A DNA stretch of 64,000 bases, from contig JAFWZZ010000029.1 of NCBI GenBank assembly GCA_017522185.1, positions 124,001 to 188,000 on the forward strand, read 5' to 3'. The notes under the pieces were generated by a model. That model was not told where the DNA came from and did no database searches. It worked only from the letters and a program-made list of their open reading frames with translations. Each line of letters starts with the position of its first letter. Positions within the stretch are counted from its first letter, which is position 1. Source of the DNA: Bacillota bacterium. Its GTDB lineage: Bacteria; Bacillota; Clostridia; Peptostreptococcales; Anaerovoracaceae. This document shows positions 18,050 to 57,070 of this stretch, one piece after another. The position numbers and the translations under genes were made by a program.

Positions 18050-18063
18050 GGAGTGTGAGATTG

Positions 18064-19365
18064 ATGACTACTGATATCGGTAGTTTACCTGAGGGATTAC
18101 TGTTTACACTGATTTTTATTGCCATTTTGCTGAACGGACTGATCGTTCTTTCCAATACGGCGCTGAATACCGTGAACCGGAACAAGATTAAACAGCTGCT
18201 TCATGACCCTGACAGATCCAAAAAGGCAGAACAGCTGGTGAATCTGTTGGAAAAACCTTCCGAATACCGTTTTACCAACAGACTGCTTAGCTATATGTTC
18301 ATCGGCACCGGTATGTATTTTTCCTTGCAGCTTCCGTATAACAATGCGTTATCTTTCGCGCTGTTCATCCTTTGTAATGTTACCTTTGCAGAATACTTTA
18401 CAAGAAAACTTGCACAGCAGCACAGCATGGGAATCGCGTTCAAGGTAACCGCAATGGAGGAAACGCTGGTTATTCTTCTGAAGCCTTTCGTATTCCTGCT
18501 GACTGTTCTGGCAAATATGTTCCTGCGCCTGTTCCGTCAGGAAACAAATGTGGATTTCAGCGGTTATTCAGAAGAAACCGTAATGTCCATTTTGGAAGAA
18601 GGGCAGCAGACCGGCGCCATCAAGGAAGAGGGCAAGAAGATGATCAACAGTATCTTTGCGTTCGACGATGAACTGGCATATGAAATCATGACACCGAGAA
18701 CAGACGTCTTCGTCATCGATATCAACGACCCGGTAGATGAATACCTGGACGAGCTGATGGAACTACGCTACTCCAGAATCCCGGTTTGCGAAGATGACAC
18801 CGACAATATCATCGGTATTCTGAACATCAAAGACTACCTGATTCAGGCCAGAACCGCCGGTTTCGACAAGGTTGACATCAGAAGCATTCTGAGAAAGGCA
18901 TATTTTGTGCCGGAAACGAAGAATATCGACTCTCTGTTTATCGAATTCCAGAAGGAAAAGCAGCATATCGCAATCCTGATTGATGAATATGGCGGATTCA
19001 GCGGTATCGTTACCATGGAAGACATTGTAGAAGAAATCGTTGGGGATATTAACGACGAATACGACGAAGAAGAACAGATTGTAGAGAAAGTTAACGATAA
19101 TATATTTATTGTTGATGGCGACGTTTCCTTAAACGACTTACAGGAAGATTACAATATCAATCTGGTTTCCGATACCAGTGAGACCATCGGCGGCTTCATC
19201 ATCGACTTATTGGGCGAAATTCCAGATGACGGCGATGAAAACCGCGAAATCGAACTGGATCAGTATATGCTGACCATCCTGTCTGTACGTGAAAGACGTA
19301 TCGAAAAGGTAAGAATCGAAATCAAAGCATTAGAAGAAGCTGAAAAGGAAGATGAACAACAATAA
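18064..19365 (+). CDS. Hemolysin-family membrane protein with CBS pair (CNNM/CorC-like)
   Basis: Polytopic protein of about 433 aa. An N-terminal membrane domain of about four helices (first about residues 8-30, then around 80-160) is followed by a CBS pair (EIMTPRTDVFVIDINDPVDEYL... YSRIPV... IGILNIKDYL and LIDEYGGFSGIVTMEDIVEEIVGDI) and a C-terminal CorC/HlyC domain. Family members take part in divalent cation (magnesium or cobalt) export or homeostasis; hemolysis is a historical name. AAGGAG at 18048-18053 could serve TTG 18061 or ATG 18064; I prefer the ATG. The 3' end overlaps the next gene by 14 bp. Confidence 0.85.
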   Translation: MTTDIGSLPEGLLFTLIFIAILLNGLIVLSNTALNTVNRNKIKQLLHDPDRSKKAEQLVNLLEKPSEYRFTNRLLSYMFIGTGMYFSLQLPYNNALSFALFILCNVTFAEYFTRKLAQQHSMGIAFKVTAMEETLVILLKPFVFLLTVLANMFLRLFRQETNVDFSGYSEETVMSILEEGQQTGAIKEEGKKMINSIFAFDDELAYEIMTPRTDVFVIDINDPVDEYLDELMELRYSRIPVCEDDTDNIIGILNIKDYLIQARTAGFDKVDIRSILRKAYFVPETKNIDSLFIEFQKEKQHIAILIDEYGGFSGIVTMEDIVEEIVGDINDEYDEEEQIVEKVNDNIFIVDGDVSLNDLQEDYNINLVSDTSETIGGFIIDLLGEIPDDGDENREIELDQYMLTILSVRERRIEKVRIEIKALEEAEKEDEQQ

Positions 19366-21916
19366 TCTTACAATTGGAATATTAGCACATGTGGATGCCG
19401 GAAAGACGACCCTGTCCGAAGGCATCCTTTATCAGCAGAAAAGCATCCGTTCTATGGGTCGTGTCGATCATGGCGATGCTTTTCTGGACACTTATCAGTT
19501 GGAGCGTGCGAGGGGAATTACCATATTCTCCAAGCAGGCTGTTTTTTCGTTGGGAGATTTTCAGGTTACGCTGCTGGATACACCGGGACACATGGATTTT
19601 TCGGCAGAAATGGAGCGTACGTTGCAGGTTCTGGACTATGCCATTCTGGTAATCAACGGCGCAGACGGGGTAACCGGATATGTAAAAACACTGTGGTCCC
19701 TGTTAGAACGGTACCGGGTGCCGGTATTCCTCTTCATCAACAAGCTGGACCAGGTTGGCGTTGACCTGGACAAGGTGTATGAAACCCTGCAGGAAAGCCT
19801 GGATGAACGCATTCTGCTGTGGGATACGGAAGATGCTGAACTCCATGAGAAGATGGCGCTGACGGACGAGACTGCACTGGAAGAACTGTTAGAATCTGCG
19901 GCGCTGTCACTGGAAACCATGCAGCGTCTTGTGGCAGATCGTAAGATTTTCCCTTGCTTTGGTGGCAGTGCACTGAAAATGGAAGGCGTCGACGGCTTCC
20001 TGGATGGCATTGCATCCATGGTCCGTCCTTCATCGCACAACGATGCCTTCGGTGCCAGAGTGTTCAAAATCACCCGCGATGACAACGGCCAGAGACTGAC
20101 ACATATGAAGATTACAGGCGGAACGCTGGCGGTCAAATCCGTCATAGGAGAAGAGAAGATCAATCAGATCAGGATCTATAATGGAACGAAGTTTACTGCC
20201 GTAGACAGTGCCGAGGCAGGCATCATCTGCGCCGTAACAGGCCTGGATCAAAGCTACATCGGCCAGGGTCTTGGATTCGAGGATGGAGGGAAAAAGCCTG
20301 TTCTCGACACGGTACTGAACTATCAGGTTCTGCTGGAAGATGGACAGGATCCATACAAAGCTTACGAGAGACTTTCGCTGCTTTCGGAGGAGATTCCGGA
20401 GCTTCACGTGGTCTGGGGCGCCGCAAATTCCGAAATCCAGCTGCAGCTGATGGGGGAAGTGCAGGCTGAAATCATTCAGTCCATTGTACAGGCGCGATTC
20501 GGCATGAATATCGCCTTTGGCACGCCATCCATTTTATATAGAGAAACCATCGAGAATAAGGTGGAGGGGGTTGGTCATTTTGAGCCCCTCCGTCATTATG
20601 CGGAGGTCCATCTGATCATGGAACCGCTTCCAGCGGGCAGCGGACTGGTCTTTGACTCAAGCTGCAAAGAAGATGATTTCGACAGGAACTGGCAGCGTCT
20701 TGTCATGGGACACCTGTCCGAACGTCAGCATCCCGGCGTACTGACCGGTTCCCCGATAACGGATATGAAGATTACTCTGGCGGCAGGGAAAGCCCATCTG
20801 AAACATACAGAGGGCGGTGACTTCCGTCAGGCAACATACAGAGCAGTTCGACAGGGACTGCGCAAAGCGAAGTGCCGGCTGCTGGAGCCATATTATGACT
20901 TCAGGCTGGAGCTTTCTATGGATCTGGTTGGCCGTGCCATGTCAGATATTCAGCAGATGTACGGCACCTGCAATCCACCGGAAACCGTCGGCGAGGCAGT
21001 CGTATTGACAGGAGAGGCTCCTGTTTCCACTATGAACGGCTATCACCGTGATGTGATTAGCTACACGAAAGGTCAGGGCAGACTCTACACGGTATTCAAA
21101 GGCTACCTGCCTTGTCATAATCAGGATGAAGCCGTGGCTGCAATCGGCTACGATGCCGATACAGATCCTGACAATCCAACAGGATCCGTATTCTGTTCCC
21201 ATGGAGCCGGAACATACATTCCATGGGATGAGGTAGAAAAGTATATGCATATTCCAGGCGTTCTAAAGGAAACAAAGGAACACGCTGATACTTTCAGCCG
21301 TGCCTACACGACGACTTCCCGTCAGTATACCGACGAGGAACTGACGGCCGTGTTCCAGCAGACCTACGGAGTCAGCAAGCGGGAAAAGAACCATTTCAAG
21401 CGGTCGCCGAAGGTCATCAAAGGAGACGCATACTTTGGTAATGGTCCGGGACCACGGGTCAAAAGCCCGCTGAACAATGCTGCGGCGGAAGAGATTCTCG
21501 TCGTTGACGGCTACAACATCATCTTCGCCTGGGATGACCTGAAGGAAATGTCTAAGCTGAACCTGGAAAGCGCCAGAGACATGCTGATCGATATTCTCAG
21601 AAACTATCAGGGATACACGGGTAAGAAGATGCTTGTCATCTTTGATGCCTATAAGAATCCGGGAAGCATCGGACACAGGGAACAGTGGGACGACCTGGAA
21701 GTTGTCTATACCAAAGAAAACGAAACCGCCGACCACTATATAGAGAAATTCGTAGTGGAAAACGTGAAGAAATACCGCATTACCGTCGCAACCTCCGACG
21801 GACTGGAGCAGATGCTGATCTTCGGGCAGGGCGCACTGCGTATGCCTGCGAGAGAGCTGCGGGAGCGTGTCATCTCTGCAAACAGGGAAATGCGGGAGAA
21901 ATATTTAGGAAAGTAG
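19352..21916 (+). CDS. TetM-like ribosome GTPase fused to a NYN (YacP/Rae1-like) nuclease domain
   Basis: An 854-aa translational GTPase with an extra C-terminal domain. G motifs are intact: AHVDAGKTT (about 12-20), ERARGITIF, DTPGHMDF, NKLD. EF-G/TetM-like domains II-V follow to about residue 645. Where Tet(M) has the PVSTP loop that reaches the tetracycline site, this protein reads KHTEGGDFRQATYRA (about 484), so drug protection is doubtful. After a basic linker, residues about 711-850 form a NYN domain (EEILVVDGYNIIFAW, LVIFDAYK, ETADHYIEKF, VATSDGLEQ) like YacP/Rae1, a nuclease that cuts mRNA in the ribosomal A site. I infer a ribosome-targeted RNA-cutting factor. The start overlaps the CBS gene by 14 bp. 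Confidence 0.9.
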   Translation: MNNNNLTIGILAHVDAGKTTLSEGILYQQKSIRSMGRVDHGDAFLDTYQLERARGITIFSKQAVFSLGDFQVTLLDTPGHMDFSAEMERTLQVLDYAILVINGADGVTGYVKTLWSLLERYRVPVFLFINKLDQVGVDLDKVYETLQESLDERILLWDTEDAELHEKMALTDETALEELLESAALSLETMQRLVADRKIFPCFGGSALKMEGVDGFLDGIASMVRPSSHNDAFGARVFKITRDDNGQRLTHMKITGGTLAVKSVIGEEKINQIRIYNGTKFTAVDSAEAGIICAVTGLDQSYIGQGLGFEDGGKKPVLDTVLNYQVLLEDGQDPYKAYERLSLLSEEIPELHVVWGAANSEIQLQLMGEVQAEIIQSIVQARFGMNIAFGTPSILYRETIENKVEGVGHFEPLRHYAEVHLIMEPLPAGSGLVFDSSCKEDDFDRNWQRLVMGHLSERQHPGVLTGSPITDMKITLAAGKAHLKHTEGGDFRQATYRAVRQGLRKAKCRLLEPYYDFRLELSMDLVGRAMSDIQQMYGTCNPPETVGEAVVLTGEAPVSTMNGYHRDVISYTKGQGRLYTVFKGYLPCHNQDEAVAAIGYDADTDPDNPTGSVFCSHGAGTYIPWDEVEKYMHIPGVLKETKEHADTFSRAYTTTSRQYTDEELTAVFQQTYGVSKREKNHFKRSPKVIKGDAYFGNGPGPRVKSPLNNAAAEEILVVDGYNIIFAWDDLKEMSKLNLESARDMLIDILRNYQGYTGKKMLVIFDAYKNPGSIGHREQWDDLEVVYTKENETADHYIEKFVVENVKKYRITVATSDGLEQMLIFGQGALRMPARELRERVISANREMREKYLGK

Positions 21917-21926
21917 GAAGAGATCA

Positions 21927-22694
21927 ATGCAAAACTATTTATCAAGTGTCAATGCGGGCGCATTCTATCTGATCGTCGCATTGGTGATGCTGTTTATTAC
22001 GGCAATGTGCCTGGTATTTTTGGAAAAAAGTTACCGCGCCGGCATCAAAATCGGCATGGACCCAAAGGTCTTACGCAAGACCATTACGGCAAGTGCAACC
22101 TTTACGCTGCTGCCGTCCATCAGTATCCTATTGGGTGTTATCGCCTTATCCGGTACCCTGGGTGTGCCGTTTTCCTGGCTGCGTCTGTCCGTCATCGGTG
22201 CGCTACAGTATGAACTGAATGTGGCGGAAATCGCGGCACAGAGCGTGGGGCTTTCCGGTCTGAATCTGGGCGAACTGAACATGAGTGCCTTTGTTACTAT
22301 CGCGCTGGTGATGACATTTGGCATCTTAGGCGGCGTATTCTGCTGCATCTTCTTCTTGAAGAAATACCTGGGTAAACTGCAGGCGAAGCCAAAAACAGAA
22401 CCGGTCGAAGGAGAGGCGGAAACAAAGAAGAAACCTGGATTTGGTGCACACGCAACTACTGCCATGTTCGTGGGTCTGTGCGCGGCATACATCGGCTCCT
22501 ATATCGGCAAGCTGACACCGGCCGGCGGCTCTGATTTCATGCCGATGATTGTAGCTGTTATCGCAGCGATCTGTATGGCGGTATTTGAATTTTTTATCCA
22601 GAAGAAGAACATGTTGGTGTTAGAAAACTTCAGCCTGGCGGCAAGTATGCTCTTTGCCATGACGGCGGCTGTTTTCATCAACATGGCGTTATAG
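21927..22694 (+). CDS. DUF5058 family membrane protein
   Basis: 255-aa integral membrane protein with about six hydrophobic segments and one charged loop near residue 155 (KTEPVEGEAETKKKPG). I recognise it as DUF5058 from the GTLGVPFSWLRLSVIGALQYELNVAEIAAQ segment; its function is not established. It lies 10 bp after the GTPase gene and 16 bp before another membrane protein and an M20 peptidase. The most economical reading is a two-part transporter working with the peptidase, for example in peptide or acylated amino acid uptake. That role is inference only. Confidence 0.75.
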   Translation: MQNYLSSVNAGAFYLIVALVMLFITAMCLVFLEKSYRAGIKIGMDPKVLRKTITASATFTLLPSISILLGVIALSGTLGVPFSWLRLSVIGALQYELNVAEIAAQSVGLSGLNLGELNMSAFVTIALVMTFGILGGVFCCIFFLKKYLGKLQAKPKTEPVEGEAETKKKPGFGAHATTAMFVGLCAAYIGSYIGKLTPAGGSDFMPMIVAVIAAICMAVFEFFIQKKNMLVLENFSLAASMLFAMTAAVFINMAL

Positions 22695-22710
22695 AAGGGA
22701 GGCGTCAGAT

Positions 22711-23391
22711 ATGAATACAAGAGAAAAAGAAATATTCTTTACTGAATTCAATAACGGTCTCCACAGAATCGGCAGAATCACGCTGATACTTGCGGTTGCC
22801 ATGCTTGTAGCTGTTCCTTTTGTCATCGGTATGATGAACGGCGTATCTCCTGACTGGGGCGGATTCTTATCCGGTTTCGCAAAGGTTGGGATTATCTATA
22901 TTCCTGTTGCCATCGTGGAATTCCTGGTGTATACGCCGATGCTGGGGGTAGGGGGAAGCTACCTGTCCTTTATCACCGGTAACGTAACCAACATGAAGAT
23001 CCCTTGCGTGATGAATGCCAAGGAAATCGCCGGCACGGAATCTGGAACGCCGGAGCACGAAATTATCTCCACCATCAGTGTGGCGACTAGTGCAATTGTA
23101 ACGACGCTGGTTATCGTGGCAGGTGTGGTTTTACTGGTGCCACTGCAGCCGGTTCTGCAGGCGGAAGTGCTTCTTCCGGCCTTTAATAACGTGGTGCCTG
23201 CGTTGTTCGGTGCTCTGGGACTGAAATACTTCATCAAGAGTCCGCAGATTGCAGTGATCCCACTGGTTCTGATGAGTGCTCTGTGCGTTCTGGTTCCTGC
23301 GGCTATCAGTCAGACGTCTCTGCTACTCATTCCAAGCGGCGGCCTGGCGCTACTCATCGGCTTCGTATTATTTAAGAAAGACAAACTCTAA
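22711..23391 (+). CDS. Membrane protein paired with DUF5058 (putative transporter partner)
   Basis: 226-aa membrane protein with about six helices, for example ITLILAVAMLVAVPFVIGMM, VGIIYIPVAIVEFLVYTPML and IVTTLVIVAGVVLLVPLQPV. The conserved-looking loop GVGGSYLSFITGNVTNMKIP between helices 2 and 3 could be a substrate or pore segment. GGGAGG precedes the ATG. I do not recognise a named family with certainty. Its fixed position between DUF5058 and the peptidase suggests it forms a complex with the DUF5058 protein. Confidence 0.7.
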   Translation: MNTREKEIFFTEFNNGLHRIGRITLILAVAMLVAVPFVIGMMNGVSPDWGGFLSGFAKVGIIYIPVAIVEFLVYTPMLGVGGSYLSFITGNVTNMKIPCVMNAKEIAGTESGTPEHEIISTISVATSAIVTTLVIVAGVVLLVPLQPVLQAEVLLPAFNNVVPALFGALGLKYFIKSPQIAVIPLVLMSALCVLVPAAISQTSLLLIPSGGLALLIGFVLFKKDKL

Positions 23392-25106: not shown

Positions 25107-27878
25107 ATGAAATATAAAAAACTACTTTTCATTATGGTGTTGATTATTTCAGTAATGTTATCTGGTATTACTGTAAATGCGCAAGAAACAGAGTTTGCTG
25201 GCGGCACAGGTTCTGTGGAGAATCCGTATCAAATTTCAAATAAATATCAATTGGATCATGTTAGAAATTACCCCAATGCAAACTATATATTGATAAATGA
25301 TATTGTTTTTACGGATAGCGACTTTCAGACAGGAGGTCAATTCTACAATGATGGAGAAGGGTGGGTTGAAATTCCAACGCTCTCTGGAACATTGAATGGA
25401 AATGGACACAGCATTGTCAACTTATATTGCAGAAATAGCGGTGTGTATTTTATTAGTGAAATCACTACATCGGGCGCTTTGATCAACATGGAATTCAAAA
25501 ATATTGACATGAATGCTGGTGGTTTTGAAGGAGATGCAATGTCGAATATTCAAGCGATAGTGAAAGATAATTACGGAACAATCGAGAATTGTTTTGTTCA
25601 TGGTAAAGCCGGAGGCGTTTACGTGAATGGCTTTGCATATAAGAATTACGGTACGATTTCACGATGTGTATCGAATCTTCAACTGCTTGGATGCATGGAT
25701 TCATGGGCATTTTCATCAGAAAACTACGGAATAATCGAAAACTGTTTAAACCTCTCTGTAGATACATTTTATTGGGGTAATAAAAAAGGCGGTATTGCGA
25801 CAGGAACTGGTACAATTCGTAATTGCGTAAGCATTGGTGGTCATAAAAACATGGTTCCTTTTCGCGATAATGCAAATGCTGACTGCTATTATATCGCTAC
25901 ATATAATGTGAAAAATGCTGGGAAAGCTACTGCTGTTCCTATAGAACGTTTGGGTGAAAAAGATGCATTTCCAACCCTGGATTTTCAACAAATATGGGAA
26001 ATGTCTTCGTCTCAGGGATTTCCTGTTTTGAAGAATAATCCAAGTTATGATTATTTTACTGGATTAGCAAATATCTCTAAACCAATTTCAAATTTAAAGG
26101 TAGAAGGACACAGCTACAATAGTATCAAATTAAGCTGGGACCCGGTTCCAGGTGCTTCTGCCTATTATATTACATCAAACAAAAATTGGCAGTCTCCATT
26201 AAACTACGAGGATATTATTACAAAAAATACAGAATATATCGATCAAAACTTAGCAGTTTCTCTTGCTGTAAGTGGATATCCTGGAAACGCAAAACCAAAC
26301 TTTGACTACTATGTTATCCCGTTATTTGAAAATAATGATATGTACTTCTTTGGTACATATAGTGCATATGGTTCGGGGAAAGCTGTTGATTTAAGTTCTG
26401 AATCCGAATATGCTGATTATACTGTTCCGGTATTAAAGTCTATCGAATTATTATCGCCGAAGGCTTTTAAACCAGGAACCTGCGATTTGAGAATTGTTGC
26501 AGACGATTTTGGAAGCGGGATTGAAACGATTACAGTTGAAATCGGATATAACACTACCAATATCTCTCATACTTTTTATCTGGACCAGGTAAAAGAACTA
26601 GATAGCGTATTTAAATTCCCTGTACCAATGGAAATCGACAGTTCTATATCAGATGTTAAAGTCCCGGTTGAAACAGGAGATTATATCATTCGTTCCATCG
26701 TTTTGAAAGATGCGGCAGGAAATGAAGAACATATAGGGGACACCTTGGGTGGAGTTTTTGGAGCGGAGATACTTCCTGATAAAACTGTACATATCGATGA
26801 TGAATTTGATGTAGAGTTTACCGGTTATTTATCAAATATTTCCGTTGCAGACCAATTAACGAAAATGCCTGAAGGAAAAACGGTTGTATTAAAAATTAAC
26901 GAAAAATCCAGGGGTATTTTAAAGAAAGAGATCCTGGATGCAATCAAGGGGCAGGATAAAACCATTGTCGTGTATGCAGATGACAATGCGAGTATGCAGT
27001 GGGTATTCTACGGAAAGGATATCACCGGAGCAACAAAAGATATCAATATCAACGTAAAATCCGAAAAGATAAACGGAAACAGGTTTGGCAGTAAATACGA
27101 TATAATTAAGCTGGAATACGAAGACAATGGAAAACTGCCAGGTATAATCCAGTTCAGACTAAAATCTAAATATATCAGTGCGATCAACAATTCCAAGGAT
27201 GATCTATTCTTGTATTATGATAACGGTAAAAAGCTTAATTTAGAACAAAGCAACTGTCCGATTATTAAAGATGGTTCCAATAACTGGTGCTATGTTGATT
27301 TGAGCCATAACTCAACATTTTATTTAAGTTCTGAAAAACTGACCAAATACGAGGGCACAGCTTTTAAGGGAAAGATTAAGCTTTCCAAGTCAGAATATGT
27401 GTATACAGGTAAAGTAAAAAACCCAAAACTGACTGTAAAAACGAGCGATGGCAAAACGCTGAAAAAGGGAACTGATTACACTGTTTCCACTCCGAAAGGC
27501 AGAAAAGCCATTGGCAAGTATACCTACACGGTAACATTTAAAGGAAACTATTCTGGTAAGAAAAAAGTGACATTGACAATCAAACCGACGGCACCGACAT
27601 TAAAAAAGCCTGCAGCCACAAAAAAGACAATTACAGTCAAGTGGAAAAAGGGTACGAAGGCACAGGCTTCTGGCTATCAGGTTATGATTGCAACCGATAA
27701 AAAATTTAAGAACGCGGTAAAAAAGTACAGCGTAAAAAGCTACAAGAAGACATCTAAGAAGATTTCTAAGCTGAAAACAAAGAAAACGTACTACGTAAAA
27801 ATCAGAACTTACAAGACTGTGAAGGGTATCAAGATTTACTCCGACTGGTCTAAGGTAAAACAAATTAAAACAAAATAA
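25107..27878 (+). CDS. Secreted multidomain surface protein (GLUG-like repeats, FN3-like domains)
   Basis: 923 aa. A signal peptide (MKYKKLLFIMVLIISVMLSG, cleavage near VNA-QE) is followed by a beta-helix-like region with GLUG-type repeats (YGTIENCFVHGKAGGVYVNGFAYKN and similar, split here only as seen), about residues 60-290. A fibronectin-III-like domain (ISNLKVEGHSYNSIKLSW) starts at about 327. The middle carries Ig-like segments. The last 170 residues are a Lys-rich pair: an MBG/Ig-like repeat (YVYTGKVKNPKLTVK) and an FN3-like module (ITVKWKKGTKAQASGYQV). No LPXTG is seen, so the basic C-terminus may hold it to the wall. The DNA is more AT-rich than its neighbours, suggesting acquisition. 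The binding partner is unknown. Confidence 0.8.
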   Translation: MKYKKLLFIMVLIISVMLSGITVNAQETEFAGGTGSVENPYQISNKYQLDHVRNYPNANYILINDIVFTDSDFQTGGQFYNDGEGWVEIPTLSGTLNGNGHSIVNLYCRNSGVYFISEITTSGALINMEFKNIDMNAGGFEGDAMSNIQAIVKDNYGTIENCFVHGKAGGVYVNGFAYKNYGTISRCVSNLQLLGCMDSWAFSSENYGIIENCLNLSVDTFYWGNKKGGIATGTGTIRNCVSIGGHKNMVPFRDNANADCYYIATYNVKNAGKATAVPIERLGEKDAFPTLDFQQIWEMSSSQGFPVLKNNPSYDYFTGLANISKPISNLKVEGHSYNSIKLSWDPVPGASAYYITSNKNWQSPLNYEDIITKNTEYIDQNLAVSLAVSGYPGNAKPNFDYYVIPLFENNDMYFFGTYSAYGSGKAVDLSSESEYADYTVPVLKSIELLSPKAFKPGTCDLRIVADDFGSGIETITVEIGYNTTNISHTFYLDQVKELDSVFKFPVPMEIDSSISDVKVPVETGDYIIRSIVLKDAAGNEEHIGDTLGGVFGAEILPDKTVHIDDEFDVEFTGYLSNISVADQLTKMPEGKTVVLKINEKSRGILKKEILDAIKGQDKTIVVYADDNASMQWVFYGKDITGATKDININVKSEKINGNRFGSKYDIIKLEYEDNGKLPGIIQFRLKSKYISAINNSKDDLFLYYDNGKKLNLEQSNCPIIKDGSNNWCYVDLSHNSTFYLSSEKLTKYEGTAFKGKIKLSKSEYVYTGKVKNPKLTVKTSDGKTLKKGTDYTVSTPKGRKAIGKYTYTVTFKGNYSGKKKVTLTIKPTAPTLKKPAATKKTITVKWKKGTKAQASGYQVMIATDKKFKNAVKKYSVKSYKKTSKKISKLKTKKTYYVKIRTYKTVKGIKIYSDWSKVKQIKTK

Positions 27879-53955: not shown

Positions 53956-54627
53956 TTATAATGTCTCATCAGATTCCTGCTGCAAAGCCGCACCGTAACG
54001 GAAAATCGCAGATAACATAAAAATCATGACAACCAGAAATACGGTTAACAAATCCACGCTCAGCTGTATATTCACCTTCCCTGTCATAAATCCGTCTACA
54101 CCATTTTCTACGATTGGTGCCAGAACAGCTACAGGAATTAAGGAAATCGCAACTTTCTTTAACTGGTCAGAAATCGCTTCTGTGAACGGTGTTTCACAGT
54201 CTCTGAAGGTTTTACAAAGCTTTTCAACCAGATGAGCAGCAACAATACAGCATGCGATAAATACAACAGCTGCAATCAACACCCAAAGACCGTCTTTGGC
54301 ATAAATAGTAGTTGCATCAGATGATAAGTCTGCAGATAACTGATTGCCGTCAGTTGTTACTTTATCAGCATTGTATGTAATGCCGTTAAGCTCAAATTCT
54401 GCCATATCCGGATCCATTTCCATGATATGATCATAATCCAGATTAAACTTAACTACTGCATCATGAGACATGGTAATGGATGCAGCCTCTCTTGGCATCA
54501 TCATTAGAAGTCCGGATCCTACGATACAAGCTACTGCTGCAATAATCAGGATAACCTTAATGATTTTCGCAATGATTTCACCGGCTTTACCCATTTTGTT
54601 TATCTTTAAAATAACTTCGTTTTTCAT
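53956..54627 (-). CDS. DUF2975 domain-containing membrane protein
   Basis: 223-aa membrane protein with four helices: about residues 18-45 (IAKIIKVILIIAAVACIVGS), 118-140, 163-185 and 193-215. An extracytoplasmic region of about 65 residues lies between the first two (SHDAVVKFNLDYDHIMEMDP). It matches the DUF2975 family typically paired with a small XRE regulator. The function is unknown; a membrane-linked partner that modulates the regulator is one possibility. AAAGGGG precedes the ATG. Confidence 0.82.
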   Translation of the reverse strand: MKNEVILKINKMGKAGEIIAKIIKVILIIAAVACIVGSGLLMMMPREAASITMSHDAVVKFNLDYDHIMEMDPDMAEFELNGITYNADKVTTDGNQLSADLSSDATTIYAKDGLWVLIAAVVFIACCIVAAHLVEKLCKTFRDCETPFTEAISDQLKKVAISLIPVAVLAPIVENGVDGFMTGKVNIQLSVDLLTVFLVVMIFMLSAIFRYGAALQQESDETL

Positions 54628-54663
54628 AAAAGATACCCCTTTCTTATGTTTAAGATTAATTTG

Positions 54664-54737
54664 TTAACGTTTATCGTTAAACATACTTTAGCATAGGGAT
54701 ATACATTTGTCAATAAGAAATTAACGTTTATCGTTAA
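54664..54737 (-). promoter_or_regulatory. Promoter of the DUF2975-XRE operon between two identical 17-bp dyads
   Basis: TTAACGTTTATCGTTAA occurs at 54664-54680 and again at 54721-54737; each copy is a perfect TTAACG-N5-CGTTAA dyad. Between them, on the minus strand, lies TTGACA (54708-54713), 17 bp, TAAAGT (54685-54690). The downstream copy covers the expected start site and the upstream copy adjoins the -35, overlapping the stop codon of the preceding gene. Centre-to-centre distance is 57 bp. Confidence 0.85.
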
Positions 54738-55222
54738 TAAAACCATTCTGTCGGCAGATAGAACAGATATGGTGCTGTGAAAATGGTCATAAATAAGGCA
54801 AGTTTCTTCTTATGCCAGTCTTCCAAACCCGTGTTCTTATAGCATATCTTATAATTAAATAAGTAAATGCACACAGCTGAGATTACGAAACACATGGTTA
54901 CCCACAAGAATGCCCATAGGTTCGTAAACGGGTTCATCATGACGCCATTTACGAAATCAACGTTCATATCCAACAATGCCGGTGCGAACATCAGTGCAGA
55001 ACCGATGATATCTGCTGCAAAACCAAGCATCCACACGGCAACAATACTTCTCTTGGCTACTTCCTTTCGGTTTTCCACACCCATAAACCGCATAGTCAAA
55101 TAAATGACCATGAAATCAATAGCAAGATTGGCCGGAATGACAATCAGCCAGGTCATCGGAATGATCCAAAGTAGCCATACCGGAAAAATCACGTTATATA
55201 GGCGAACATCTGTGTTTTTCAT
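54734..55222 (-). CDS. Four-helix membrane protein of unknown function
   Basis: 162-aa protein with about four to five membrane helices (YNVIFPVWLLWIIPMTWLIV, LAIDFMVIYLTMRFMGV, SIVAVWMLGFAADIIGSALM, LWAFLWVTMCFVISAVCIYL) and a positively charged C-terminal part. I do not recognise a named family. It follows the XRE regulator gene at 55253 by 30 bp and has an AGGAGG site, so the two are one operon. Its last codons overlap an operator copy of the next operon. Confidence 0.75.
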   Translation of the reverse strand: MKNTDVRLYNVIFPVWLLWIIPMTWLIVIPANLAIDFMVIYLTMRFMGVENRKEVAKRSIVAVWMLGFAADIIGSALMFAPALLDMNVDFVNGVMMNPFTNLWAFLWVTMCFVISAVCIYLFNYKICYKNTGLEDWHKKKLALFMTIFTAPYLFYLPTEWFY

Positions 55223-55252
55223 GAGAAATCCCTCCTCTTTTGAACAAAACCC

Positions 55253-55696
55253 CTATAACTGTTCTAAATGCAGCTTAATTTCTTCTAAATCAAAGCTGGA
55301 ATATACCCTCTCATCCTGCGCGTTTAAGATACGATAGTGCTGGGAAATGATATTCTGTTGAATCTTGTAACCGTATCGTTCCTCAATCTGACGCCACCAG
55401 ACATGACCTCCCATGGTCTTCGGATAAACGCGTTCCGTATGCGAAAATGCCAACGCCTGAATGATATCCGTCGGCTCCCCGCCAAAAGTAGACCATAATA
55501 TTTTACTGTCGCTAAATAGTGTGCACAGCGCGATACTGCCGGTCCAGCCTAAAGATGAACGGCCTTTCTCGATTTCCACCAGCGTTTTCTTGGATATACC
55601 CAGGATTTCACTCATCTTCTCCTGACTAAAAGAAAACTCCGTTCGGATCAGCTTCTCTATTTCATTACATTTATCAATAAATTCATTCTTGTTCAT
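55253..55696 (-). CDS. XRE-type transcriptional regulator
   Basis: 147-aa protein with an N-terminal helix-turn-helix (FSFSQEKMSEILGISKKTLVEIEKG split at residues about 21-45) and a C-terminal part of unknown fold (MGGHVWWRQIEERYGYKIQQ, YRILNAQDERVYSSFD). AGGAG precedes the ATG. A perfect 28-bp palindrome lies 30 bp upstream. It is cotranscribed with the membrane protein gene downstream. Autoregulation is inferred. Confidence 0.82.
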   Translation of the reverse strand: MNKNEFIDKCNEIEKLIRTEFSFSQEKMSEILGISKKTLVEIEKGRSSLGWTGSIALCTLFSDSKILWSTFGGEPTDIIQALAFSHTERVYPKTMGGHVWWRQIEERYGYKIQQNIISQHYRILNAQDERVYSSFDLEEIKLHLEQL

Positions 55697-55713
55697 TGGT
55701 TTGCTCCTAATTT

Positions 55714-55754
55714 AGTATAATACTATATTTATAGTGTAAATTTACACTATAAAT
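55714..55754 (-). promoter_or_regulatory. Perfect 28-bp palindrome at the XRE gene promoter
   Basis: ATTTATAGTGTAAA (55727-55740) is followed at once by its exact reverse complement (55741-55754). On the minus strand the possible promoter is TTTACA (55740-55735) and TATACT (55719-55714), with a 15-bp spacer, so the palindrome covers the -35. Such a long exact dyad is not expected by chance and is best read as an operator. Confidence 0.8.
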
Positions 55755-55772
55755 GAGCGGATGTCAAGACTA

Positions 55773-55849
55773 AGATGTATCCTATAAACTCGAAAAATAG
55801 AGTCAAAAATGGTAATTCCGTCAAAAAACAACGTTTATAGGATACATCT
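55773..55849. repeat. Long inverted-repeat element (17-bp perfect arms)
   Basis: AGATGTATCCTATAAAC (55773-55789) recurs inverted at 55833-55849, with 43 bases between. The middle holds two TCAAAAA blocks. There is no T tract on either side, so it is not a plain terminator. It could be a small intergenic repeat of the MITE type, a structured RNA or a processing hairpin at the end of the alcohol dehydrogenase transcript. Confidence 0.65.
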
Positions 55850-55854
55850 CCAAT

Positions 55855-55882
55855 AAAAAAAATGCCTGCATTTGCAGACATT
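55855..55882 (-). terminator. Intrinsic terminator after the alcohol dehydrogenase gene
   Basis: On the minus strand AATGTCTGC-AAAT-GCAGGCATT is followed by eight Ts (plus-strand A run 55855-55862). It starts six bases after the stop codon. Confidence 0.88.
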
Positions 55883-55888
55883 TTCTCA

Positions 55889-57070
55889 TTATCTTGCCAT
55901 TTCAAAGATCTTCGCAAAGTCCTCTTCGTAGAGAACCTTTGCGCTTCCCTTCTTTCCGCCGCAGGCAACAGCTGCCTTATGTGCAAGTTCACGGATTTCC
56001 TCATCGGTCGGCTCTACGCCAAGTTCTTTTAGTGAAGTCGGCATGCCGATTTTCTTGAAGAAACGTTCCAAAGCCTCGATACCATCTATGGCAACGCCAT
56101 ACATGTTAAACGGGTCTGCGTCGATTTCCATCACATCGACTGCAAACTTGAAGAACCTGTACATGCAGTCTTCCATCACATAACGTGCCCAGCTGCCCCA
56201 GATTGCGGATAATCCGGCCCCATGAGCCACATCATACATGCCACCTAGTTCGTGTTCCAGTCCGTGAGTGACAAAATCCGTGCTCTTGGTTCCGCAACCG
56301 GTCAGGCCGTTGTGAGACAGGCTTCCTGCCCACATGACTTCCGCACGGGACTTGTAATTATCCGGATCCTCTTTCAGAATCAGCGCGTGTTTCATCACAG
56401 TCTTAAGCAGACCTTCTGCGATGGCATCGGTCATGTCGGAATTGCCATCCTGCGTAAAATAACGCTCCAGTGTGTGCATCAGGATGTCCGTACAACCGCA
56501 CATTGTCTGATACTCCGGTAATGTCTTCGTCAGTTCCGGATTCAGGATCGCAAACTTCGGTCTTGATGCATCGTGTCCATAGGAACGCTTCAAAGCGCCC
56601 TCTTCCTTCGTAATCACGGAACTGTTGCTCATTTCGGATCCGGTCGCCGCCATGGTCAGAATGACGCCGATTGGTGCACACTTATCGGTTTTTCGGGTGT
56701 GCTCATATAAGTCCCAGACGTCAAAGTCGTTGGTAATGCCGTATCCGATGGCTTTTGCTGAGTCGATAACACTGCCTCCACCGACAGCCAAAATAAAATC
56801 TACGCCTTCTTTTCGGCAAAGTTCAATGCCCTCATACACCTTGGAAAGACGCGGATTCGGTACCACGCCGCCCAGTTCCACATATGGAACACCGGCTTCT
56901 TCCAAGGACGCCTTTACCCTGTCCAACAGCCCGCTGCGCACGACGCTGCCGGATCCATAATGAATCAACACCTTGGATGCCCCCTGCTCTTTTACCAGCT
57001 GGCCGACCTGTTCTTCTGTATCTTTTCCAAAAATCACCTTTGTCGGTGTATAATATGTAAAATCAAACAT
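55889..57070 (-). CDS. Iron-containing alcohol dehydrogenase (YqhD/butanol dehydrogenase-like)
   Basis: 393-aa group III alcohol dehydrogenase. The NAD(P)-binding GGGSVIDSAKAIGYGI is near residue 95. The metal-site histidines are in MHTLERYF, FVTHGLEHELGGMYDVAHG. The N-terminal MFDFTYYTPTKVIFGKDTEEQV resembles YqhD/BdhA proteins, which reduce aldehydes. It starts nine bases after the threonine aldolase stop with AAGGAG before the ATG, so acetaldehyde released by the aldolase is a natural substrate. Confidence 0.9.
   Translation of the reverse strand: MFDFTYYTPTKVIFGKDTEEQVGQLVKEQGASKVLIHYGSGSVVRSGLLDRVKASLEEAGVPYVELGGVVPNPRLSKVYEGIELCRKEGVDFILAVGGGSVIDSAKAIGYGITNDFDVWDLYEHTRKTDKCAPIGVILTMAATGSEMSNSSVITKEEGALKRSYGHDASRPKFAILNPELTKTLPEYQTMCGCTDILMHTLERYFTQDGNSDMTDAIAEGLLKTVMKHALILKEDPDNYKSRAEVMWAGSLSHNGLTGCGTKSTDFVTHGLEHELGGMYDVAHGAGLSAIWGSWARYVMEDCMYRFFKFAVDVMEIDADPFNMYGVAIDGIEALERFFKKIGMPTSLKELGVEPTDEEIRELAHKAAVACGGKKGSAKVLYEEDFAKIFEMAR

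Follow-up and report, generated by a model that had tools for sequence, protein, structure and literature searches.

Two kinds of protein known to act in the aminoacyl (A) site of the bacterial ribosome bear on the gene described here. Ribosomal protection proteins of the Tet type bind in an A-site position overlapping that of EF-G; the factors studied occupy the A site when a ribosome holding a P-site transfer RNA (tRNA) is stalled by a drug, and Pro-509 of TetM lies at the drug site (PMC8161019). Rae1 (YacP) of Bacillus subtilis can attack A-site messenger RNA (mRNA) (PMC12320835), and loss of rae1 or of yacO (rlmB) suppresses the defect of an efp mutant of this organism (PMC6613710). The two were linked in 2015, when Tet proteins of ten clostridial species were reported to carry a YacP-like NYN domain and an RNase-based resistance was suggested (Atkinson 2015, PMC4342817). 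Here we analyse a gene of this make-up in a 64,000-nucleotide stretch (the window) of the Bacillota genome assembly GCA_017522185.1 (contig JAFWZZ010000029.1, family Anaerovoracaceae), and report that genomes with the fusion are without an intact stand-alone Rae1. An earlier sequence-only reading of the window had regarded the fusion as having no defined function; the papers found indeed describe no tested function, but the architecture itself had been published in 2015. The window protein shares the two-part make-up of that clostridial set and looks like a member of it; the accessible text of the 2015 report gives the architecture one sentence and mentions neither loss of Rae1, decayed yacP, a linker motif nor unfused relatives. 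No other publication evidently joining YacP/Rae1 to a Tet-type GTPase was found among those listed, in a search that had most of the subscription literature outside it. What is new relative to the 2015 report is what the fusion replaces, namely stand-alone Rae1.

The fusion gene is complete, a single intact open reading frame with an ATG start at 19352..21916 of the forward (+) strand, on which all window features given below lie. It encodes 854 amino acids (aa), and the longest frame listed on the opposite strand inside it is 175 aa. Its product is an EF-G/Tet-type GTPase (residues 5-591) followed, after a linker, by a complete Rae1/YacP NYN nuclease domain (residues 714-854, 21491..21913). 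Pfam NYN_YacP matches residues 716-851 with an E-value of 8e-48 (162.9 bits against a cut-off of 24.6), so that the nuclease domain proposed in the sequence-only reading is present, as are the motifs VVDGYNIIF, IFDAYK, ETADHY and SDGLEQ that it had quoted. In a PDB sequence search, B. subtilis YacP (5mq8/5mq9) matched residues 714-848, reaching 1e-30 with the NYN domain alone.

Four genome samples, taken at the level of family (140 genomes), class (137), phylum (149) and order (149), were searched with the NYN_YacP profile. Matches above the cut-off were obtained in 375 distinct genomes, 159 of them with frames of at least 700 aa, 210 with frames below 300 aa and six with frames in between; most genomes were classed by frame length alone, and the identity of long frames with the GTPase fusion was checked on fetched loci. 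The earlier suggestion that such fusions occur in other Clostridia is borne out. An intact fusion together with an intact stand-alone Rae1 was not observed in any of the 375. The class sample divided into 51 genomes with the fused form, 41 with the stand-alone form, none with both and 45 with neither (Fisher p 5e-11, relatedness ignored). NYN_YacP was present in 100 of the 140 genomes from the window's own family, nearly always in fusion-length frames, and the phylum sample held 73 short frames among its 149 genomes. The fusion is the sole NYN_YacP match in the window's own genome and occurs in 11 of 12 genomes of the same genus, the twelfth being 73% complete; six named fusion genomes also had NYN_YacP only in fusion-type frames. 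Fused and stand-alone genomes stand side by side in families f2, f3, f28, f29 and f33, and even within one genus in f33 (g106) and in f3 (g322).

On inspection, five of the six mid-length frames proved to be of fusion type, and the sixth, in G346, was a stand-alone gene in rlmB-yacP-sigH. Contig ends truncate the fusions of G079 and G087, the frame of G106 matches the fusion across residues 5-848, and those of G221 and G097 are taken up below. Two genomes with short frames (G062 and G178) have their match at a contig end and may hold cut fusions. Second matches were few: G294 has the fusion and another NYN_YacP match below the cut-off, G072 the fusion and an 88-aa fragment above it, and the multiple matches of G123 are pieces of one frame. 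In G449 the stand-alone gene is present twice, in G470 once but broken in two, and Ruminococcus flavefaciens FD-1 shows two NYN_YacP matches of equal score in frames of 940 and 360, perhaps owing to a duplicated contig. In G221 (locus L125) the fusion falls into two frames, one of 584 aa with the GTPase and one of 347 aa with the NYN domain, either by an assembly fault or as a broken gene.

The stand-alone gene has a recognisable home. In 18 stand-alone loci examined, yacP lay with sigH in all 18 and with rlmB as well in 14; the remaining four, three loci of family f29 and one short f29 stretch, showed no rlmB. We examined the surroundings of rlmB in 48 fusion genomes (18 + 30), a selection of those found, and a yacP frame beside rlmB was present in none of them. 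In 21 of the 48, rlmB is followed by sigH at a spacing ranging from overlap to about 540 nucleotides, and in the genome of the window rlmB and sigH directly adjoin or share at most 8 nucleotides (start codon assumed), with no yacP between them. Thus, wherever the old locus is recognisable in these genomes, yacP is gone from it. A translated search of the 1.2 kb past rlmB detected yacP debris in 4/48 fusion genomes, as against 0/48 in the control with reversed stretches. The debris is clearest in G200 (2.5e-17), where the pieces are spread over two or more frames, one carrying six stops; G290 (8e-7) and G309 (2.5e-5) follow, and the match in G272 (6e-5) is weak, spanning only 31 aa. G200 and G228, which has an intact stand-alone yacP, belong to one genus and are neighbours on the rlmB tree with a support of 89.

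On this rlmB host tree (48 fused and 14 stand-alone genomes) the trait needs nine changes, at least three of them required by strongly supported branches. The NYN tree, built on a different set of rows, separates 69 fused from 19 stand-alone sequences by one change. We propose that the disagreement arose because the fusion was transferred and the resident yacP then decayed; another possibility is repeated loss from an ancestor holding both forms. The NYN branch between the two forms has a bootstrap support of 51 and a Shimodaira-Hasegawa-like approximate likelihood ratio test (SH-aLRT) support of 99, and a single change is found in 49% of the bootstrap trees. A single fusion event is thus the best but not a firm reading.

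The presumed active-site acids of the nuclease domain are intact. Four acids, D719 (21506..21508), D765 (21644..21646), D794 (21731..21733) and D816 (21797..21799), are aspartate in 131/131 fused and 19/19 stand-alone rows, so the loss of catalytic aspartates that would have spoken against the nuclease is not seen; the fused rows include a few genes twice, the window gene among them, and the stand-alone rows include B. subtilis. These residues are presumed to be catalytic, as in PIN-like nucleases. B. subtilis Rae1 (5mq8, 5mq9) has the same NYN_YacP domain, normally one per genome, but it is a stand-alone protein of about 175 aa encoded in rlmB-yacP-sigH, without a GTPase. The window domain, unlike Rae1/YacP, covers only profile positions 1-138 of 166. 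A further difference lies at position 767, two residues past D765: after the FDA motif B. subtilis Rae1 has histidine in place of the tyrosine of the window protein. This residue is tyrosine in 130 of the 131 fused rows and histidine in 16 of the 19 stand-alone rows.

The GTPase part begins with the G domain (residues 5-224, 19364..20023; Pfam GTP_EFTU, E 9e-48), in which the motifs quoted earlier, AHVDAGKTT (12-20), DTPGHMDF (from 76) and NKLD (130-133), were found in the translation. These are widely retained among relatives: AHVDxGKT in 66/68 fused and 22/22 unfused rows, DTPGH in 68/68 and 21/22, and NKxD in 67/68 and 22/22. Domain II (residues 234-300, 20051..20251) is a weak match, EF-G_D2 scoring 26.7 bits, just below the cut-off of 27, within the TetM-aligned part. 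Domain III (residues 322-390, 20315..20521) is also weak, with 15.6 bits for EFG_III against a cut-off of 27; this model is matched at 1e-5 by 42 of the 53 proteins of alignment A2. Domain IV (residues 392-507, 20525..20872; EFG_IV, 9e-19) and domain V (residues 509-591, 20876..21124; EFG_C, 8e-17) follow. The nearest solved relatives by sequence are TetM and TetO (3j9y, 4v6v), which have the same GTPase motifs; TetM 3j9y is collinear with the window protein over residues 6-586 (E 6e-74).

Unfused orthologues of this GTPase, labelled 'translation factor GTPase family protein', exist in Bacilli and Clostridia; those named belong to Neobacillus, Paenibacillus, Clostridium puniceum, Ligilactobacillus salivarius, Bifidobacterium and Collinsella. 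They are 43-55% identical to the window protein (five aligned rows) and share its C-terminal extension (residues 592-650, 21125..21301), a conserved region with the sequence SVFCSHGAGxxxPWDEVEKYMH, at or shortly past which their chains end; they differ in having neither the linker motif nor the NYN domain. In alignment A2, 48 of the 53 proteins match NYN_YacP and exactly five are unfused. On the GTPase tree, which was rooted with five tet-type rows and made by a quick method with SH-aLRT support only (32 of 92 inner forks are open), one side (support 93) consists of 16 unfused rows, from Neobacillus, Paenibacillus, Clostridium and others, and the other (support 88) of the 68 fused rows together with six unfused ones. 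The six constitute a single clade (support 100) from Bifidobacterium, Collinsella, Lactiplantibacillus and one viral-collection contig, and look like the product of a later loss of the NYN domain with transfer to other groups.

Between the extension and the nuclease lies a linker (residues 651-713, 21302..21490) that is specific to the fusion, being found neither in unfused C-termini nor at the start of stand-alone YacP. It is long and variable in sequence and carries a motif, EELTAVFQQTYG (residues 662-673, 21335..21370), with the consensus xELxxIFxRTYG about 54 residues ahead of the NYN start. The strict pattern was counted in 71/91 fused rows, while two control windows taken from the same proteins gave 0/91 each; one row (L222) was left out of the count as the NYN-start pattern missed it. 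Most of the 20 rows without the strict pattern show the motif by eye with an altered flanking residue, and L187 does not. Neither the unfused C-termini nor the start of stand-alone YacP contained the motif.

Taken together, the comparison suggests that the joined protein took the place of stand-alone Rae1 in many gut Clostridia. Since the fusion is present where Rae1 is missing, its nuclease very likely does the job of Rae1, and a Rae1-like role in the A site becomes more likely than it was from the motifs alone. We consider it probable, with some reserve, that the fusion is the Rae1 of its lineage, a GTPase-tethered endonuclease cutting A-site mRNA on stalled ribosomes. The studied members of the group to which the GTPase belongs occupy the A site of drug-stalled ribosomes (PMC8161019), a situation resembling the one in which Rae1 acts.

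Ribosome binding, A-site cleavage, control by GTP and the order of steps are what we infer for such a protein. The EF-G/Tet-like part would bind ribosomes with a vacant A site, sampling a stalled ribosome in its GTP-bound form; upon GTP hydrolysis domain IV would withdraw from the A site; the linked nuclease could then enter and cut the mRNA within the A site or beside it, and the truncated message would be left for rescue of the transfer-messenger RNA (tmRNA) type and for decay. The sequence-only reading had imagined a GTPase that uses GTP to place the nuclease. Since domain IV would itself fill the A site, a sequential hand-over after hydrolysis seems more plausible to us than such GTP-driven, simultaneous placement. 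A bolder version, which we put forward only tentatively, is a GTP-gated surveillance endonuclease: the GTPase would test and, where necessary, empty the A site as a timer and, only after hydrolysis, hand it to the Rae1 domain, which would cut the codon, so that one protein both recognises and cuts stalled translation and has spread between Clostridia by displacing classical Rae1. RelE-type toxins and SmrB/MutS2-type collision factors resemble such a protein in acting on mRNA or collided ribosomes at the ribosome. Their folds are different, and they are not known to include a translational GTPase within one chain.

Several observations weigh against the view that the fusion is a GTPase-tethered Rae1. 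In 27 of the 48 fusion genomes the 1.5 kb examined did not include sigH, so that the old locus is judged on the other 21; the tree support for a single fusion (51/99) is modest. NYN_YacP above the cut-off is absent from 40/140 genomes of the family sample, 45/137 of the class, 64/149 of the phylum and 10/149 of the order, which implies that the function is dispensable. The loss of yacP alongside the fusion may reflect no more than NYN activity having become redundant, without direction by the GTPase. The nested clade of six keeps the GTPase without the nuclease, and the GTPase is therefore of some use by itself. Lastly, G097 (L360, ~435-2240, -) contains one frame matching the fusion at 3-385 and 661-849, that is, parts like domains G, II and III and an NYN part with domains IV-V unmatched. 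It is an assembly fault or a natural variant; if real, it misfits the need for domain IV and speaks against a hand-over after hydrolysis.

The chief rival holds that two independent functions sit on one chain, an ordinary Rae1 and a GTPase with its own job on the ribosome, the fusion giving co-expression or local concentration and no control of cutting by GTP. The existence of unfused orthologues in Bacilli and Clostridia agrees with it, as do the nested clade that seems to have lost the nuclease and kept the GTPase, and the length and variability of the linker. Stand-alone NYN_YacP also accompanies the unfused GTPase in 10 of 12 named genomes, but the class sample gives no more than 3 of 7, and with these two figures we do not claim any excess of co-occurrence. 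A conserved linker motif seen in neither separate form is harder to reconcile with independent parts, and Y767, which is specific to the fusion and close to a presumed catalytic acid, hints at an adaptation to being fused. Moreover, the parts stay joined in 68 tree rows from several Clostridia families, two Erysipelotrichaceae rows included. On balance we regard two independent functions as unlikely.

An antibiotic resistance factor of the ribosomal protection type, working through RNase activity as suggested in the 2015 report (PMC4342817), seems improbable to us. Its attraction is that TetM and TetO are the nearest solved relatives, and 13 of the 15 plasmid relatives among the matches listed are annotated as TetM/TetW/TetO/TetS family. 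The sequence-only reading had noted that the PVSTP loop of Tet(M) is replaced and that simple tetracycline resistance is unlikely, and our comparison agrees on both points. At the PVSTP position of Tet(M)-type rows, loop III of domain IV reads KHTEGGDFR in the window protein (residues 484-492, 20801..20827). KHTxGGDF is found there in 65/68 fused, 21/22 unfused and 0/5 tet-type rows, and PVSTP in 3/5 tet-type rows; TetM and TetO have the PVSTP loop and no nuclease. Being common to fused and unfused relatives, KHTxGGDF marks the GTPase subfamily and not the fusion. Loop I has the majority sequence GHFEPLRHYAEV, also unlike Tet, and the NCBIfam tet_protect model NF012153 gives the window protein 400.5 bits against a cut-off of 775. 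The differing loops and the missed cut-off mark it as related to the Tet proteins without being one of them. Separate Tet-type genes with SPVSTPADF are co-resident with the fusion in G308, G218, G207 and G201, the domain is found in fusion-length frames through most of the window's own family, and the fusion takes the place of a housekeeping nuclease. On these comparisons we judge it unlikely that its main role is tetracycline resistance. Least probable of all is a nuclease processing ribosomal RNA (rRNA) or tRNA, which PMC4342817 cites as an earlier prediction for NYN domains: the acids, presumed to be catalytic, fit any PIN-like endoribonuclease and the stand-alone gene adjoins rlmB, an rRNA methyltransferase gene, but the homologous B. 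subtilis Rae1 attacks A-site mRNA (PMC12320835) and many genomes have no NYN_YacP domain at all.

If the fusion is indeed a tethered Rae1, the A-site mRNA endonuclease of many gut Clostridia would be part of a translational GTPase and not a small stand-alone protein. How Rae1 finds its ribosome would become directly testable with fused and stand-alone forms in sister species, a comparison that is possible because both occur within one genus (g106, g322). Many public tetracycline-resistance labels, such as those on the plasmid relatives above, would be wrong, which matters for counts of resistance genes in gut metagenomes.

Named carriers of the fusion, drawn from the best 80 loci of a longer match list, include Anaerovorax odorimutans, Ruminococcus flavefaciens, Intestinimonas butyriciproducens, Holdemania massiliensis, many Lachnospiraceae and a Mogibacterium. 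Phage or plasmid as the main context was rejected. Only 2 of 1242 plasmid records with a match cover at least 80% of the query, on records of 252 and 518 kb, and the NYN part is absent from the best 80 of 141 viral-collection loci, none of which matches past residue 634. An 875-aa fusion frame (L351:3802-6426) lies on a record that bears the label Bacteriophage sp. (MT835563.1, unverified, human faeces) and is possibly host DNA. Three viral-collection contigs (L241, L242 and L271) carry unfused GTPases of the fusion's subfamily, those of L241 and L242 at the very contig start, perhaps as host genes at a prophage edge. On plasmid records, a fused frame (L352:3989-6790) and an unfused one (L353:3980-5914) are both annotated as TetM/TetW/TetO/TetS, a likely over-annotation. 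An rpsN (S14) gene at L353:3523-3792 adjoins the latter on a Ligilactobacillus salivarius megaplasmid.

Just upstream of the window gene, and overlapping it by 14 nucleotides, lies a gene for a CNNM/CBS/CorC_HlyC membrane protein (18055..19365; Pfam). Farther upstream are a U32 peptidase, an O-methyltransferase, a YceG-like (MltG) gene and efp. A CorC-type gene precedes the fusion in 10/11 other loci of the same genus and, in another genus, in the single locus L020; it was found beside the fusion in none of 28 other fused loci searched. The window neighbours within about 7 kb recur in 0/63 other fused contexts. A conserved operon partner was accordingly rejected, CorC being mostly confined to the own genus, and since the neighbours are not conserved the nearby efp gene, tempting in view of the suppression of an efp mutant by loss of rae1, is not used as evidence for function. 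Past the fusion, two frames at 21927-23391, a DUF5058 gene and one without a Pfam match, did not turn up next to the fusion in the stretches examined from other genomes, those of the same genus included. Elsewhere in the window, a 923-aa frame at 25107-27878 has a signal-peptide-like start and only a sub-threshold fn3 match, and sits in the part of lowest G+C content (0.363 at 26-28 kb). The GC skew swings from positive to -0.16 at about 54000-56000.

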